Positions 6,378 through 60,099 of a stretch of 64,000 nucleotides of DNA are shown piece by piece. Origin of the DNA: Mesohalobacter halotolerans (GTDB lineage Bacteria > Bacteroidota > Bacteroidia > Flavobacteriales > Flavobacteriaceae); NCBI RefSeq assembly GCF_006120725.1, contig NZ_SWMU01000003.1, forward strand, positions 186,001 through 250,000. Direction: 5' to 3'. Numbering within the stretch: the stretch's first letter is position 1; each line of letters starts with the position of its first letter. Below the pieces are notes generated by a model. The model did not search any database, was not told the origin of the DNA, and was given only the letters and a program-made list of their open reading frames with translations. The translations under genes were made by a program, and so were the position numbers.

Positions 6378-7058
6378 ATGGAAAGTTTACTATCATCTTT
6401 AAAATTAAATATAAGCTCGTGTCTGTATTTAAAAGATCCTGAGAGCTCAGAATTAGGCCATAAGATACTCTCAAAAAGTATTGAAATGATACATGAATTA
6501 GGGATAGAAAGTTTTAATTTTAAAAAATTAGGACAACAAATAGATTCAAATGAAAGCTCTATCTACAGGTATTTTGAAAATAAGTACAGGTTACTTCAAT
6601 ACCTGTCAGCAATGTATTGGGGAATCATAGAATACAGGCTGGTAATCGAGACCAATGCGATTGAAGATTGTTCTAAAAAGCTTTTAATGGCTATAAAAAT
6701 CCTAACTTTAAAGCCAAAAGGTATAGACTCTTATTCAGATTTTGATCAACTTAAATTAAGAGACATCATTATTGAAGAGTTTACAAAATCTTATCATCAC
6801 AAAGACATCGATAGTGATAATGAAGACGGTAATTTTAAAATATATAAACGTTTAATTCTAAGAATAGTTGAAATGATTAATAATGTTGACCCTTCTTATA
6901 ATTTTCCAAAAGCTTTAGCTTGTCACATTGTAGAAGGTGCACTTCAACAGTATTACATTCAAAGACATTTTAAATCCTTGACTGATCGTAAAGCTGAAAC
7001 TCAGGTTTACAAATTTTATAAAGACATGATTTTAAAGGTTTTAAACCCTAAACATTAA
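6378..7058 (+). CDS. TetR/AcrR-family transcriptional regulator of the exporter operon
   Basis: A 226-residue regulator with a TetR helix-turn-helix at about residues 30-75: a first helix around IEMIHELG, FNFKKLGQQI as the scaffold and SSIYRYFENKYRLLQYL as the recognition helix and its follow-on. The C-terminal part is helical and has no recognisable ligand motif. It is the first gene of a tight run: its stop is 6 bp before the ATG of the ABC exporter. By family it most likely represses this operon and is released by a small ligand, but no operator palindrome is evident in the AT-rich upstream spacer. Confidence 0.85.
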   Translation: MESLLSSLKLNISSCLYLKDPESSELGHKILSKSIEMIHELGIESFNFKKLGQQIDSNESSIYRYFENKYRLLQYLSAMYWGIIEYRLVIETNAIEDCSKKLLMAIKILTLKPKGIDSYSDFDQLKLRDIIIEEFTKSYHHKDIDSDNEDGNFKIYKRLILRIVEMINNVDPSYNFPKALACHIVEGALQQYYIQRHFKSLTDRKAETQVYKFYKDMILKVLNPKH

Positions 7059-7064
7059 TTGATT

Positions 7065-8708
7065 ATGACACCTTGGACAAGATTATTAAATTTATTAAAG
7101 CTTGAACGCAAAGACATACTTAAAATTTTGCTTTACGCCGTTTTTGCTGGTCTAGTAGGATTATCTCTTCCTCTTGGGGTTCAAGCTACTATCAATCTTG
7201 TTGTTGGAGGGCAATTTAATGCATCAATAATAATTTTGATCAGTTTGGTTCTTCTCGGAGTAATTTTTCAAGGGATTTTAAGGTATATGCAGCTTAGAGT
7301 TGCTGAAGACTTACAACAACGCATCTACACTAGAGCTTCCTTTGAGTTTATCTACAGATTTCCTCGAATAAAGTCACAGGCTCTCGATGGGTATTACGCA
7401 CCAGAATTAGCAAATCGATTTTTTGATACCATGGTCATACAAAAAGGCTTACCAAAAATTCTGATTGATTTCTCGGCTTCATTGTTGCAGATTATTTTTG
7501 GTTTAATACTCTTATCCTTTTACCATCCCTTCTTTATTTTGTTCGGTTTTGTTCTCGTCATATTATTATATGTCGTTTTTAAGTACAGTGTCCCTTTGGG
7601 TGTTCAAACCAGTCTAGATGAATCGAGCTGTAAGTATAGAAATGCGCATTGGATTGAAGAAATTGCAAGAAGCTACGAAAGCTTTAAAGTTTCTGATAGT
7701 TTCTCATTATCGTCAAAAAAGAATGACGAATTAGCCATAGATTATCTCAACGCAAGAGAAAGTCACTTCTCCATTTTAAAGCTTCAGTTTTTTAAAATGA
7801 TTGGATTTAAAACCATTGTCACTGCTGGTTTACTGATAATTGGTGGTTTACTGGTTATCAATCAACAGATGAATATTGGGCAATTTGTAGCTGCCGAAAT
7901 TGTTATCCTATTGATGATAAACTCTGTTGAAAAGCTCATTTTAGGCCTTGAAAATGTTTATGATGTATTGACTTCAATCGAAAAAATTGGTAAAATCACA
8001 GATATGCCCTTGGAAGAAAAAGTTGTAAACCAACCTTTTAATAAAACTAAGGATTTAAGGTTAGAGCTTGTGAATTTGAATTTAGAATTCACAAGATCTA
8101 ATAAAAAAGTATTAACAGACATCAATCTCAATATCGAGCCCAAATCACATGTACTTATCACGGGGCAAAGTGGTTCGGGTAAAACCTCCTTACTTAAAAT
8201 TATTGCTGGGCTCATACCGCCAAGTGATGGACAATTGCTCATTAATGATATAAATATTAAAAATATAAACAATGAACATTATCGCTCATTTATAGGTCAT
8301 GTTTTTCCAAACAACCTTCCTTTTGATGGCAGTATTGAAGAAAACATTACATTTAACAACCCCGAGATTGAGGAGAAAAAAGTTAAAGAAGTTTGTTCGG
8401 TTTTAGGCTTAGATAATTTTATAAAAGCACAACCCAAAGGACTGCAAACCAATATTTCAACTGATGGTAAGCAATTATCCTATACCATGAGTAAAAAGAT
8501 AATTTTGGCCAGGGCGCTAGTATCTGAACCAAAATTATTAATCTTAAAAGATCCTTTAGATGAATTTGATGTCAAAGAAATCAAAACCATTATAAAATAT
8601 TTATTTGACCCTAAACAACCCTGGACAATATTGGTTGCCAGTAGAAATGCTATTTGGAAAGAGTATTGCGAACGTGTCATTTATTTAGAAAACGGTAAAA
8701 TAAAATAA
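7065..8708 (+). CDS. ABC exporter (fused membrane domain and ATPase) with degenerate nucleotide-binding domain
   Basis: A 547-residue half-transporter: an exporter-type membrane domain with about five or six hydrophobic segments (residues ~15-300), then an ATP-binding domain. Walker A is intact (GQSGSGKTS, residues 367-375). The other motifs are altered: Q-loop Gln is Pro415 (HVFPNNLPF), the LSGGQ signature is LSYTM (471-475), the Walker B Asp is Lys495 and the catalytic Glu is Asp496 (LLILKDPLDEFD), and the H-loop His is Ser526 (VASRN). No C39 peptidase domain precedes it. The ATG at 7065 is preferred to a TTG at 7059. It lies between its regulator and an HlyD adaptor, so a type I secretion-like pump is inferred; the substrate is unknown. 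Confidence 0.85.
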   Translation: MTPWTRLLNLLKLERKDILKILLYAVFAGLVGLSLPLGVQATINLVVGGQFNASIIILISLVLLGVIFQGILRYMQLRVAEDLQQRIYTRASFEFIYRFPRIKSQALDGYYAPELANRFFDTMVIQKGLPKILIDFSASLLQIIFGLILLSFYHPFFILFGFVLVILLYVVFKYSVPLGVQTSLDESSCKYRNAHWIEEIARSYESFKVSDSFSLSSKKNDELAIDYLNARESHFSILKLQFFKMIGFKTIVTAGLLIIGGLLVINQQMNIGQFVAAEIVILLMINSVEKLILGLENVYDVLTSIEKIGKITDMPLEEKVVNQPFNKTKDLRLELVNLNLEFTRSNKKVLTDINLNIEPKSHVLITGQSGSGKTSLLKIIAGLIPPSDGQLLINDINIKNINNEHYRSFIGHVFPNNLPFDGSIEENITFNNPEIEEKKVKEVCSVLGLDNFIKAQPKGLQTNISTDGKQLSYTMSKKIILARALVSEPKLLILKDPLDEFDVKEIKTIIKYLFDPKQPWTILVASRNAIWKEYCERVIYLENGKIK

Positions 8709-8711
8709 TTC

Positions 8712-10082
8712 ATGCTCAACATATCTAAATACAAACTCAATAAAGAAGAAGACCTTAGCAGGTATGATTCGATGAAATTTGTCAATTTCAAGAACAGGTA
8801 TATTACCTTTAATAAAATTATGACTACTATAGGAATTGTATTTCTTATTTTTATGTTTTTGCCTTGGACACAAAATGTTAGAGGCACAGGTTATGTCACA
8901 ACCCTAAACCCCAGTGAAAGGCCACAATCTATACAATCTGCCATACCGGGACGAATTGAAAAATGGTATGTTGGCGAAGGTGATGAAGTTGAAAAAGGCG
9001 ACACAATAGTATTTATTTCTGAAATTAAAAGTGAATACTTAAACCCACAACTTCTTGATCGAACCAAAGCTCAGATTACTTCAAAGATTTTTTCTCAAAG
9101 CTCATATACCGAAAAAGCAGAGCAACTTACTAGGCAAATTGTGGCTTTAAAACAAGAACGAGAACTAAAACTCGAACAAACCAAAAATAAATTGCAACAA
9201 GCCAAGCTGCAGGTAAAAAGTGATAGTATAGATTTAGAAGCCGCTAAAACCCAAATTAGTATTGCTCAGCGTCAGTATGATCGTATAAATCAATTGGAAG
9301 CAGAAGGTCTAAAATCTCGAACAGATTTAGAAAATAAAAAATTAAAACTCCAAGAAAGTCAGGCAAAACTGATATCTCAACAAAATAAACTTTTATCCAG
9401 TCGGAATAAAGTTTTAAATGCTCAAATAGAAATATCAACGATACAAACAAATTACGAAAACAAAATTTCTAAAGCCGAAAGCGATCGTCAATCTGCGCTT
9501 TCAGGTCAATATGATGCCCAAGCAGAAGTTAACAAGTTAGAAAACGAATTGTCAAATTACACTTTAAGAACAGACTTAAGATACATTAAAGCCCCTCAAG
9601 ATGGTTTTATCAATAGGGCTATTCAAAAAGGGATTGGTGAAACCTTTAAAGAAGGTGCAGAAATAGTAAGCATTATGCCAACTGAAATTGATTTGGCTGT
9701 AGAGACCTATGTAAGACCTATTGATTTGCCTCTTATGCATCCAGGCGAAGAAGTTAGAATTATATTTGATGGCTGGCCGGCAATATTCTTTTCGGGTTGG
9801 CCAAATCTTTCTTATGGAACTTATGGCGGCAAAATTGTTGCTGTAGAAAGAAGCATAGATCCAGCAAAAGGCAAATACAGAGTGTTAATAAAACCTGATG
9901 AAAATCAAACGAATTGGCCAGATGTGATCAGGGCAGGTTCTGGAGCTAAAACACTTGCACTGCTTAAAGATGTCCCAATTTGGTATGAAATATGGAGACA
10001 AATTAATGGTTTCCCACCAGATTATTATTTGCCAACAAAACAAAATACCAACTCGGATAAAAACCAAAACACCAAGAAGTAA
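8712..10082 (+). CDS. HlyD-family periplasmic adaptor
   Basis: A 456-residue membrane-fusion protein. A cytosolic N-terminal stretch of about 35 residues is followed by one membrane segment (TTIGIVFLIFMFLPWTQ), the first lipoyl half (IPGRIEKWYVGEGDEVEKGD), a long Gln/Lys/Glu-rich coiled-coil hairpin (about 115-290), the second lipoyl half (LRYIKAPQDGFINRAIQKG) and a beta-barrel C-terminal region. It starts 3 bp after the ABC stop and its TAA overlaps the TolC ATG as TAATG, so the three export parts are translated together. It would connect the inner-membrane ABC protein to the outer-membrane TolC protein. Confidence 0.9.
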   Translation: MLNISKYKLNKEEDLSRYDSMKFVNFKNRYITFNKIMTTIGIVFLIFMFLPWTQNVRGTGYVTTLNPSERPQSIQSAIPGRIEKWYVGEGDEVEKGDTIVFISEIKSEYLNPQLLDRTKAQITSKIFSQSSYTEKAEQLTRQIVALKQERELKLEQTKNKLQQAKLQVKSDSIDLEAAKTQISIAQRQYDRINQLEAEGLKSRTDLENKKLKLQESQAKLISQQNKLLSSRNKVLNAQIEISTIQTNYENKISKAESDRQSALSGQYDAQAEVNKLENELSNYTLRTDLRYIKAPQDGFINRAIQKGIGETFKEGAEIVSIMPTEIDLAVETYVRPIDLPLMHPGEEVRIIFDGWPAIFFSGWPNLSYGTYGGKIVAVERSIDPAKGKYRVLIKPDENQTNWPDVIRAGSGAKTLALLKDVPIWYEIWRQINGFPPDYYLPTKQNTNSDKNQNTKK

Positions 10083-11473
10083 TGCGTATCACCTTGCTTT
10101 GTTTATTGCTGGCTGTAAGTACTTACGGACAAACCCAAAGCGATTTAGGTATTCTAGGACTAGAAGAATATTTGGGTTGGGTAAAGCAGTACCATCCTGT
10201 TGCTAAGCAAGCTGATTTGAGAATCTCAGAAGCTCAAGCTCAGTTGCTGAGAGCTCGAGGGGCTTTTGATCCAAAAATAGAGATTGATTGGGATAACAAA
10301 GATTTTGACGAAAAAGAATACTACAACATTCTAAACTCAAGCTTTAAAATTCCGACTTGGTTTGGTATTGAACTAGCCGCTGGTTTTGAAAGAAACTCAG
10401 GCGTCTTACTTAACCCACAAAATAACGTCCCGGAAAATGGCTTGTATAAAGCGGGTATTTCAGTCCCACTAGGTCAAGGTCTGTTTATCAATAAGAGGAT
10501 GGCTGGTCTTCGACAGGCAAAAATACTTCAAAATCTCAATGAAGCAGAGCGCCAAATGGAAGTTAATAAAGTACTATACGAAGCTAGTTTAGCCTATTTT
10601 GAGTGGTATGTAGCCAACAAGGAAGTCCAACTCTTTGAAAATACGCTAGAACAAGCTGAGATAAGATTTAACGGCATTAGACAAAGTGCTTTAGCTGGAG
10701 ATTTACCTGCTATTGATACTTTAGAAGCTGGTATCATCAAAAAAAATAGAGCCTTAAGTTTAGAACGCGCTAATCTAAAATTAATTGAAAAGCGTTTAGA
10801 ACTTTCTAACTTTTTGTGGATAGACGATAATGTCCCGGTAGAATTAAATCCTGATATCTCACCTGAAGACCTCAACAATACAGATGTTGATGCAATTTTA
10901 CAAACCAACCTTATTGTTTTAGAAGATTATGATCTCAATTCTCATCCAAAACTTAGGGCCTTAAATTACAAATTAGATCAACTCAATATTGAGCGAAGAC
11001 TTAAAGCTGAAATGCTCAAACCCCAATTAGATATTGAATATAATTTTATCAATGAAAATATAAGTAATATTGACAACTATGATATTGGTGAGTATACTTT
11101 TGGGGTCTACTTTAAGCTACCTATTTTTTTGAGAAAAGAAAGAGGTGAGTTAAATCTTACAAAAGCCAAAGTTCAACAAACCGAATTTGAGTTAGACTTG
11201 GTAAATACTCAAATCACAAACAAAATCAGTCAAATAGAAAATCAAATATTGTCTTATCAGAGACAAGTCACTGCAAGCCAGGACATCGCAAATGACAATC
11301 AAGCCCTACTCGAAGGAGAAGAACGGAAGTTCAGCTTTGGAGAAAGTTCTGTATTTCTACTTAACCAAAGAGAAGTTAAATATATAGAAGCCCAACTCAA
11401 ATACATCGAAACACTAAACAAGTTACTTAACTCAAGAGCCAAGTTATTCAACATTTTAGCACTAGAGTTATAG
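10082..11473 (+). CDS. TolC-family outer-membrane efflux protein
   Basis: A 463-residue protein with a signal peptide (MRITLLCLLLAVSTYGQ) and two repeats of the TolC type: long helical stretches (residues about 150-220 and 360-460) separated by predicted beta segments such as FKIPTWFGIELAAGFE and YTFGVYFKLPIFLRKE. There is no lipobox. The start codon overlaps the HlyD stop (TAATG). Its stop codon overlaps the convergent DUF3179 gene by 6 bp, and no terminator hairpin lies between them. It forms the outer-membrane duct of the exporter encoded just upstream. Confidence 0.9.
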   Translation: MRITLLCLLLAVSTYGQTQSDLGILGLEEYLGWVKQYHPVAKQADLRISEAQAQLLRARGAFDPKIEIDWDNKDFDEKEYYNILNSSFKIPTWFGIELAAGFERNSGVLLNPQNNVPENGLYKAGISVPLGQGLFINKRMAGLRQAKILQNLNEAERQMEVNKVLYEASLAYFEWYVANKEVQLFENTLEQAEIRFNGIRQSALAGDLPAIDTLEAGIIKKNRALSLERANLKLIEKRLELSNFLWIDDNVPVELNPDISPEDLNNTDVDAILQTNLIVLEDYDLNSHPKLRALNYKLDQLNIERRLKAEMLKPQLDIEYNFINENISNIDNYDIGEYTFGVYFKLPIFLRKERGELNLTKAKVQQTEFELDLVNTQITNKISQIENQILSYQRQVTASQDIANDNQALLEGEERKFSFGESSVFLLNQREVKYIEAQLKYIETLNKLLNSRAKLFNILALEL

Positions 11474-12220
11474 GTCTTTTACATCAGATACATCTTGGTA
11501 TTGCGGCCATGATGATGGTCGCTCAAAATCCTGACCTGATATCAAAATTTTTGCACTTGGGTATTTTAATTTTATTTGCTTCCATGTCGTATCTTCCCAA
11601 TTAGTTTTATCATAAATGTGTAGTTTGGCACCTTTCATTTTGCCAGAAACCGCCTTACCAATTAAAGGCCACCACAAGCTTTCAGTTTCTCTATCCCAAA
11701 AAACAAACCCATCTTTACCATCCCAAATATCAGGATCATAGTACGTATAACCGCTTAACCCAAAAGTAAAAACTTTATCGCCATAATCTCGCTTATAAAT
11801 AGCGCCGAGGTCTGCCAGAACACAATAGGCTGCCATAATGGGCTTGCCATTCAATTTGTCGTTTACAATTTCGTGTCTTGTTAAATCCTGAATGCTGTAT
11901 GCTTTAACTTCATCACCAGATTTTGCAACTAAAAAACGATCACTATCATCCCAGTGTTTGTCTGCTTTTTGAATACTTGTAAATTTAGGTTTTAATAAGG
12001 CTGGAAAGGCTTCTCGTCCTAAGCCATAATGAAATTGATCTTCTTCCAAAGATAAATTAGAAACATTAAAATGCTGATTTTCTTTTTGGCCACCATAAAG
12101 CAGGCGTTTACCATCTTCGTTAAAAAATTTTCCCAACTCAACCGAAACGGGTCGCTGTCGATTTTGAGCAATTAAGGATGTACTCAAAAGAAGTATCAAA
12201 ATAGAACCAATAGTTTTCAT
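11468..12220 (-). CDS. DUF3179 domain protein, exported
   Basis: A 250-residue protein with a signal peptide ending near LIAQ, then a DUF3179 domain recognised by VKAYSIQDLTRHEIVND, KPIMAAYCVL, FGLSGYTYYDPDIWD and FWDRETESLWWPLIGKAVSG. Many family members carry a Cys-x-x-Cys in the segment after the conserved Tyr-Cys; here the segment reads YCVLADLG, so the second Cys is missing. The function of the family is not established. It is convergent with tolC (6-bp overlap) and divergent from the GNAT-like gene, so it appears to be a single-gene unit. Confidence 0.8.
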   Translation of the reverse strand: MKTIGSILILLLSTSLIAQNRQRPVSVELGKFFNEDGKRLLYGGQKENQHFNVSNLSLEEDQFHYGLGREAFPALLKPKFTSIQKADKHWDDSDRFLVAKSGDEVKAYSIQDLTRHEIVNDKLNGKPIMAAYCVLADLGAIYKRDYGDKVFTFGLSGYTYYDPDIWDGKDGFVFWDRETESLWWPLIGKAVSGKMKGAKLHIYDKTNWEDTTWKQIKLKYPSAKILISGQDFERPSSWPQYQDVSDVKDL

Positions 12221-59403: not shown

Positions 59404-60099
59404 ATGTCCGAAACTATATTGAGTTTAAAAAATGTAGCCATTTACCAGAGAGAATCACTTATCCTTTCGCAAGTAAATGTTTCTATTGAAAAAGGTGAAT
59501 TTGTATATCTTATTGGAAAAACAGGCACAGGGAAGAGTAGTTTTATGAAAACTCTTTATGGTGATATTCCACTAAAAGATGGACAAGGTGAGATTGTTGG
59601 TGTTAATCTCAAGACTTTAAAAGACAAGCAAATCCCGGAATTAAGACGCAAACTCGGTGTAGTTTTTCAAGATTTCAAGTTGCTTAACGACAGAAATGTC
59701 AAAGAAAATTTATTGTTCGTCTTAAAGGCTACAGGTTGGAAAGATAAAAGTAAGATAGAAAAGAAAATAGACGAGGTTTTACGTAAAGTTGGAATGCAAA
59801 CAAAACATTTTAAATTTCCATATCAACTTTCAGGTGGTGAACAACAACGCGTAGCCATCGCCCGAGCATTACTCAATGACCCTGAACTTATTCTAGCCGA
59901 TGAACCAACAGGAAACCTTGACCCCCAAACATCTGTTGAAGTTATGGAAGTTTTGCAAGACATCAACAAAAATGGGAATACAATATTAATGGCTACTCAC
60001 GATTATGCGCTTTTACTCAAATTTCCATCAAAGACATTAAAATGTGATGGTCAAAAAGTATTTGAGGTAGTACAGAAAAATGCAAAGACAGAAATTTAA
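59404..60099 (+). CDS. ftsE: Cell-division ABC ATPase FtsE
   Basis: A 231-residue ATPase with canonical motifs: Walker [11 protein letters not shown]-loop [10 protein letters not shown], signature [15 protein letters not shown], Walker [13 protein letters not shown] and the H-loop His in [30 protein letters not shown] fits flavobacterial FtsE. With FtsX it activates peptidoglycan hydrolysis at division. ftsX is not adjacent, as is often so in Bacteroidota. A glycosyltransferase gene follows 47 bp later. Its intact motifs are a useful contrast to the ABC protein at 7065. Confidence 0.88.

Follow-up and report, generated by a model that had tools for sequence, protein, structure and literature searches.

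The stretch of DNA analysed here (the window) comprises 64,000 nucleotides of contig NZ_SWMU01000003.1 of Mesohalobacter halotolerans (positions 186,001 to 250,000), and the gene under study is an open reading frame (ORF) at 7065-8708 on its + strand, which encodes a 547-residue protein with the fold of an ATP-binding cassette (ABC) exporter, that is, a transmembrane domain (TMD) followed by a nucleotide-binding domain (NBD). The frame starts with the ATG at 7065, is open throughout and terminates with the stop codon at 8706-8708. It is preceded by a gene for a TetR-type regulator and followed by genes for a HlyD-type periplasmic adaptor and a TolC-type outer-membrane factor (Table 1). Six bases separate the TetR stop (7058) from the ATG of the ABC gene (7065), three bases lie between the stop of the latter (8708) and the adaptor ATG (8712), and the adaptor stop (10080-10082) overlaps the TolC ATG (10082) by one base. 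This TetR-ABC-HlyD-TolC spacing fits an operon, and the open frame and the coupled adaptor and TolC genes described by the original prediction, which had been made from the DNA letters alone, are borne out by these coordinates. Neither promoter-like sites (18 vs. 20.8 in shuffles) nor terminator-like sites (2 vs. 3.4) were in excess.

Table 1. Features of the operon and of the ABC-exporter-fold protein (positions in the window; residues numbered on the 547-residue protein)
Feature	Positions	Strand	Basis or remark
TetR-type regulator, first gene of the operon	6378..7058	+	PF00440, 24.7 bits (cut-off 24)
ABC-exporter-fold inner-membrane protein with degenerate NBD, 547 aa	7065..8708	+	PF00664, 32 bits (cut-off 28); PF00005, 82.4 bits (cut-off 25)
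Transmembrane domain TM1-TM6, residues 1-322, the part surviving in the NBD-less clade	7065..8030	+	model helices
First cytosolic loop, PELxNRFFDxxxxQK, residues 110-129	7392..7451	+	kept even without an NBD
Gln142 in TM3	7488..7490	+	group comparison
Second cytosolic loop, coupling helix 2 region, residues 205-219	7677..7721	+	conservation relaxed in the NBD-less clade
Glu278 in TM6	7896..7898	+	near-invariant in every group
Walker A GQSGSGKTS, residues 367-375, retained	8163..8189	+	sequence
Q-loop position, Gln replaced by Pro415	8307..8309	+	sequence, family alignment
Signature position, residues 471-475, LSGGQ replaced by LSYTM	8475..8489	+	sequence, family alignment
Walker B Asp replaced by Lys495, catalytic Glu by Asp496	8547..8552	+	sequence, family alignment
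H-loop Ser526-Arg527, Arg527 in the His column	8640..8645	+	family alignment
HlyD-type periplasmic adaptor	8712..10082	+	PF13437, 43.4 bits (cut-off 22.2); TIGR01843, 98.4 bits, under its cut-off of 208.65
TolC-type outer-membrane factor	10082..11473	+	PF02321, 111.7 bits; start overlaps adaptor stop

Both Pfam scores of the protein exceed their cut-offs, as expected of an ABC exporter, and the gene set of type I secretion (HlyD-type adaptor and TolC-type factor) is present beside it; the best NCBIfam match, TIGR03375, reached 198.1 bits and fell below its cut-off of 693.1. The canonical catalytic set of the NBD is replaced at all five features (Q-loop Gln, LSGGQ, Walker B Asp, catalytic Glu and switch His). 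The intact Walker A and the residues P415, LSYTM, K495 and D496 read by the original prediction were all found on the translated ORF, in which an A-loop aromatic (Phe342) is also present. The loss of the switch His was correctly recognised as well, but not its position, which had been placed at Ser526. When the protein was aligned with the rows that retain this His, the "VASRN" of the window protein faced "xxSHD", so that Ser526 corresponds to the Ser preceding the His; Ser526 was dropped as the switch residue and Arg527 occupies the His column instead. FtsE, encoded in the same window (59404-60099), has canonical motifs, as had been stated.

The family to which the protein belongs is widespread. 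At E <= 1e-60, a homologue was present in 38 of 60 genomes (own genome included) and, within the same genus, in 23 of 26 other genomes, one of the three without it being 52% complete. Matches at 1e-100 were obtained in 94 of 296 genomes of the order, and at 1e-50 in 97 of 395 genomes of the phylum. LSGGQ, the Walker B Asp and the switch His are missing in all 65 loci compared, a set that includes eight named duplicates of others plus the window itself; Walker A is recognisable in all of them, and a Glu at the second Walker B position is retained in some. We then considered a family alignment of 137 rows (the window and 136 loci, designated by L numbers), 117 with an NBD and 20 without, divided into 106 degenerate-NBD rows, 20 NBD-less rows and 11 outgroup rows. 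None of the 117 NBD rows contains LSGGQ, a Gly at the fourth signature position being present in nine, two of which read LSTGQ; the Walker B Asp-Glu is kept in 11 and the switch His in 10, and the Walker A pattern G....GK[ST] is found in 106. The combined Asp-Glu and His set is lacking in 109 rows, which keep none of the five canonical features in 82 cases, one in 23 and two in four. The eight rows that do have it (L099-L103, L105, L123 and L125) all lack the Q-loop Gln. In the Q-loop column, whose content depends on the alignment, Gln was found in six of the 117 rows, all six being degenerate; for this reason, loss of the Q-loop Gln is not claimed as the first step, in spite of its absence from the eight rows. 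Among the 106 degenerate rows, 64 have a Tyr or Phe in A-loop column 342; at position 496, Asp occurs in 84 rows and Glu in 11, and at position 495 a Glu is seen in 55.

A comparison of orthologues had been suggested in order to see whether the five changes are conserved. The loss of the signature, of the Walker B Asp and of the His is general in close relatives, but the exact set of changes is not conserved: different residues stand in as replacements, and the Q-loop Gln or the catalytic Glu survives in some rows. Close relatives with canonical motifs, which would have pointed to decay of the window copy, were looked for and none was found. A loss of the catalytic residues across the family is strongly supported by the alignments. 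Another exporter of the window genome (L128, C5:538919-540394) has LSSGQ for LSGGQ, yet keeps the Walker B DE and the switch His.

Relatives identified by name show the same picture. The NBD is degenerate in the proteins of Persicobacter psychrovividus pPP1 and of Riemerella anatipestifer, and the Aureibacter tunicatorum protein (WP_309940528.1) has no Walker A and gave no ABC_tran match. In seven sphingomonad plasmid genes (Novosphingobium aromaticivorans WP_049759575.1 and others) Walker A is gone in all seven, and ABC_tran scored 26.5 in one (cut-off 25) and 24.8 in another, with no match in five. A TolC gene adjoins each of the seven, and the adaptor is labelled as HlyD family in six loci and as "biotin/lipoyl-binding protein" in one. 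Among nine annotated relatives, the label is "ABC transporter ATP-binding protein" in seven and "transmembrane domain-containing protein" in two. On a plasmid of Sphingopyxis sp. 113P3 (L191) the homologue is unannotated, and similarity ends at residue 432, beside an annotated IS3 transposase.

The partner genes are kept together with the ABC gene. Across 88 loci, gene clusters contained ABC in 87 cases, TolC in 86, HlyD in 85 and TetR in 44. At L104 no adaptor or TolC match to the window proteins was found, and at L123 no TolC match. A group of loci (L092-L096, L099-L103, L121-L124 and L147-L149) has longer frames (about 700-840 aa), in which the membrane domain is preceded by roughly 145-255 residues; in six of these proteins scanned with Pfam, no family was assigned to the N-terminal extension. 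In the window itself, a gene for a DUF3179 protein (11468-12220, - strand) is convergent with the TolC gene, with a six-base overlap at its end.

The ratio of nonsynonymous to synonymous substitution rates (dN/dS) of the NBD was 0.056 and 0.072 between the window and its two nearest relatives (L002 and L003), and 0.106 and 0.159 with respect to L005 and L006. For the TMD one value was obtained (0.036, with L003). The dS values, 1.3-2.8, are near saturation, and the NBD pairs with L004 and L009 and the other TMD pairs yielded no value. Judging from these ratios, the NBD is still under constraint in the lineage of the window. This is in keeping with the original prediction that the gene is not simply decaying, as are the recurrence of the motif losses in relatives and the retention of the partner genes. 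Between degenerate rows, the NBD is nevertheless less alike than the TMD. Its identity was the lower of the two in 5848 of the 5849 pairs of such rows (medians 0.319 for the NBD and 0.514 for the TMD), as compared to 16 of the 28 pairs formed by the eight Asp-Glu and His rows (medians 0.402 and 0.490). For a canonical exporter of related genomes used as control, the 158 of 381 pairs with a TMD identity under 0.7 gave 0.663 for the NBD and 0.515 for the TMD; when the 381 pairs were taken together, 225 of them had the lower identity in the NBD (medians 0.697 for the NBD and 0.791 for the TMD), so that the contrast is clear only for the 158 more distant pairs and not at close range. No internal stops were seen among the matches listed for the 60-genome (1e-60) and the 296-genome (1e-100) searches; in the search of the 395 genomes of the phylum, one listed match (G401) shows stops.

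An NBD is absent altogether from 20 of the 137 rows; these belong to three other families of the class, and their proteins end just past TM6. They align to query residues about 2-325 only, and in the three such proteins run against Pfam ABC_membrane was the sole match. BLAST showed that HlyD and TolC frames adjoin all 20 genes on the same strand. In family-wide searches the NBD-less form was scored by frame length (up to 424 aa). Of the 81 genomes searched in family f24, 76 gave a match and 27 of these carry the form, at 28 places; in f17 it is present in 10 of the 29 genomes that matched out of 81, and in f23 in 13 of the 51 that matched out of 60. These counts leave aside the frames of G788 (f17), which is short and lies at the edge of a contig, and of G744 (f24), which is interrupted by a stop. 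In the tree built on the membrane domain, the NBD-less rows form one clade, corresponding to one change, with a support of 100. In a second tree, which contained 10 of the 20 rows, the clade received 100/100 and was nested among the degenerate-NBD rows by forks supported at 100/97 and 97/88. When four exporters from the window genome served as the root, very long branches resulted, and this rooting was not relied on. Two separate losses of the NBD, suspected from genus g281, found no support, the NBD-less rows being a single clade. The nearest rows outside it are degenerate, some of them keeping single canonical residues (the Walker B Asp in L147, the His in L149), and therefore the trees support an order in which catalysis was lost first and the domain later. 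One genome (G736) carries two NBD-less copies and one degenerate-NBD copy (L151, L152 and L153), each with its own HlyD and TolC; the adaptor at L151 is split over two frames.

The membrane domain was examined on an AlphaFold model built from 11 sequences (mean pLDDT 74.2, pTM 0.48), in which helices span residues 15-47, 53-101, 119-153, 156-203, 221-265 and 271-312, some of them split. Helices and loops are positioned in this model as in an exporter, and the 50 Foldseek matches listed are ABC exporters. In the first cytosolic loop, E114, N117, Q126 and K127 are present in 106 of 106 degenerate rows and 20 of 20 NBD-less rows; such a near-invariance where the NBD is missing would not be expected of a pure NBD contact. 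The second cytosolic loop, where the model is uncertain (pLDDT under 50 at residues 203-219), behaves differently. Residues 211-220 are the ten-residue stretch with the largest drop in conservation between NBD-less and other degenerate rows, with 2.46 bits in the NBD-less rows, 0.95 in ten sister rows and 2.05 in samples of twenty others, as compared to domain-wide means of 0.99, 0.83 and 1.23 bits. This relaxation is as expected if there is no NBD left to hold. Inside the transmembrane helices, the polar or charged residues Glu278, Gln142 and Glu289 are conserved. Of the 106 degenerate rows, 104 have Glu and two have Asp at position 278, and Glu is universal there in the NBD-less rows (20 of 20) and in the outgroup (11 of 11); since the outgroup has it too, Glu278 was rejected as a marker of ion coupling. 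At position 142, a Gln is shared by 121 of the 126 degenerate or NBD-less rows and by all 10 named relatives, and none of the 11 outgroup rows has it. Among the columns listed, thirteen distinguish the groups, and at four of them (Gln142, Ser151, Leu256 and Glu306) all seven sphingomonad proteins have the residue of the degenerate group.

The original prediction had left several options for the energy supply of this system. Since a whole clade discarded the NBD while its partner genes for adaptor and channel stayed in place, "another energy source" is now the option to be favoured. Lacking an NBD, the membrane domain of this clade, with its adaptor and channel, must manage without ATP hydrolysis in cis, and the precedents of SbmA, NBD-less MsbA and LmrA make ion coupling the most economical energy source. 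With a probability of about 0.5, we propose that the window protein and its family are the ABC-fold subunit of a tripartite exporter that has given up ATP hydrolysis and carries out ion-coupled transport. A homodimer of membrane domains would transport by alternating access, driven by an ion gradient, most likely of protons passing through the membrane domain, with Glu278 of TM6 and Gln142 of TM3 as candidate coupling residues; the substrate would be passed on to the adaptor and then to TolC. Members that still possess an NBD, such as the window protein, probably keep it docked, and ATP may be bound there by Walker A together with the A-loop aromatic; the domain would act as a clamp, structural or regulatory, and not as a motor.

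Several observations weigh against this proposal. The NRFFD loop is kept in the NBD-less members, unlike in SbmA, whose coupling helices are lost according to passages of PMC13316013. Walker A persists in 106 of 117 NBD rows, so ATP binding may still matter, and the second Walker B residue is acidic in 95 of 106 degenerate rows, so slow hydrolysis may persist. Passages of the relevant reports also state that MsbA without its NBD is less efficient than the full protein (PMC4979069) and that deletion of Walker A inhibits ion transport by full-length LmrA (PMC2704374). Moreover, Glu278 is equally conserved in the 11 outgroup rows, eight of which keep Asp-Glu and His, whereas Gln142 is no strict marker, given that the His is gone from L104, L122 and L124 of the outgroup and that these three nevertheless lack this Gln; its association with the degenerate group may rest on a single evolutionary event.

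A different explanation is that the ATPase acts in trans, the degenerate or NBD-less subunit pairing or forming complexes with a canonical NBD or exporter encoded elsewhere. Heterodimers with one degenerate site are known (described in passages of PMC7756269), TMD and NBD are on separate genes in some YddA relatives (passages of PMC13316013), and MsbA-type exporters with canonical motifs are present in the window genome. Nonetheless, we consider this arrangement unlikely. The operon contains no canonical partner half-transporter, and one encoded at a distance is possible; however, the other exporter-type matches of the window genome are only 22-24% identical, the adaptor is single-copy, with no second match in that genome, and pairing with a second ATPase, one of the options originally listed, is so far not supported. 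No recurring lone ATPase gene accompanies the NBD-less form either: a motif pattern, applied to the fetched stretches and not to whole genomes, found an ABC ATPase frame in one of the 20 NBD-less loci, a separate, canonical-looking protein (LSLGQ, LLMDEP; L086:12507-13364) about 1.3 kb past the TolC gene.

CFTR and SUR are ABC proteins that are not pumps, and by analogy ATP binding without hydrolysis might gate a passive or ligand-driven pathway here, making the protein a channel-like or facilitated exporter. The frequency of Walker A in the NBD rows and that of an A-loop Tyr or Phe in the degenerate rows are in line with this possibility. It is inapplicable, however, to the NBD-less clade, to the seven sphingomonad relatives and to Aureibacter, which have no Walker A although the same kind of partner genes is present, and we regard it as rather doubtful. 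That the membrane domain is by now an inner-membrane scaffold, anchoring the HlyD-TolC conduit and no longer a transporter, would agree with the conservation of the adaptor genes, the channel genes and the first-loop motif independently of the NBD. This appears improbable, because Glu278, Gln142 and Glu289 are conserved inside the transmembrane helices beyond the needs of a mere anchor, and control by a TetR regulator would rather fit inducible efflux. Residual ATP hydrolysis, with the acidic residues at 496 or 495 standing in for the usual pair, might be read from the composition of these columns, and the corresponding Asp of TmrB has a role, although only a regulatory one according to a passage of PMC8277102. 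The signature, the H-loop and mostly the Q-loop are gone in the same proteins, though, NBD identity lies under TMD identity in all but one of the degenerate pairs and the NBD-less clade exists, all of which makes such hydrolysis very unlikely. Lastly, a decaying pseudogene or a sequencing artefact, to which the joint loss of five catalytic features might have pointed, is ruled out by the orthologues, as the same losses recur in all 65 loci compared and the dN/dS of the NBD is well under 1 where computable.

The living members of the family can be arranged in stages: Asp-Glu and His present without the Q-loop Gln; signature, Walker B and His gone; Walker A also gone; no NBD. We tentatively suggest that these may represent a natural conversion series from an ATP-driven ABC exporter to an ion-driven secondary transporter within an envelope-spanning tripartite pump. 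If true, SbmA would be joined by a second natural example of an ABC fold switching its energy source, this one with intermediates preserved. The use of ATP defines ABC transporters, and a common family devoid of the catalytic residues, with one clade devoid of the NBD, would show how a primary pump becomes something else; the annotation of the family genes as ATP-driven pumps is probably wrong. The family would also offer natural intermediates for asking whether exporter membrane domains have an ion coupling of their own, an argument made so far, in passages of PMC13316013, PMC4979069 and PMC2704374, on SbmA and on LmrA, MsbA and their engineered truncations.

Among known systems, type I secretion and PCAT-like exporters (HlyB, PCAT1, LssB type) are similar in fold (Foldseek TMq 0.84 to the PCAT1 core, 8vox, and 0.81 to HlyB, 8dck_B) and in their HlyD and TolC partners, but the window protein has no peptidase-like domain and has lost the catalytic NBD motifs, and some of its relatives are NBD-less. 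EmrAB-TolC is an ion-driven inner-membrane pump with a HlyD-like adaptor and TolC, in which EmrB is a protein of the major facilitator superfamily and does not have the ABC fold; the window adaptor gives a weak EmrA/EmrK-type match (50.8 bits vs. a cut-off of 390.8). No description of a degenerate or NBD-less family of this kind was found in the literature, in a search that left outside most subscription papers and all bioRxiv preprints. The review passages on degenerate sites (PMC7756269) and on tripartite systems (PMC8277102) deal with heterodimers with one degenerate site. In TmrAB, TM287/288, TAP and CFTR, as described in the former, one site lacks the catalytic Glu, the signature or the switch His and the other is canonical, whereas no canonical partner gene was found here, and both sites of a homodimer would be degenerate.

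SbmA, according to passages of PMC13316013, is proton-driven and NBD-less and derives from the TMD of an ABC ancestor. SbmA/BacA (SLiPT) thus resembles the NBD-less clade in that an ABC-exporter membrane domain works without an NBD, but the window protein has one, as have all but 20 of the 137 family rows. SbmA is an importer and the family studied here would export; the coupling helices were lost there, and the first loop is kept here. SbmA is not known to have HlyD or TolC partners, and neither the window protein nor the three NBD-less proteins run against Pfam matched an SbmA/BacA family. SbmA/BacA transporters couple protons through a glutamate ladder; of the family studied here, it can be said that acidic residues are conserved inside the transmembrane helices. 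The engineered LmrA-MD and MsbA-MD, in which the membrane domain alone moves drugs on a proton gradient, come close to the proposed mechanism: MsbA without its NBD exports ethidium with a pH gradient (passages of PMC4979069), and LmrA requires E314 of TM6, which sits near TM3 amides (passages of PMC2704374 and PMC6155054). By analogy, the Glu278/Gln142 pair would resemble this arrangement of E314 and TM3 amides. These constructs are laboratory truncations and do not represent a natural clade, whereas the NBD-less clade is natural and has its adaptor and channel genes alongside.

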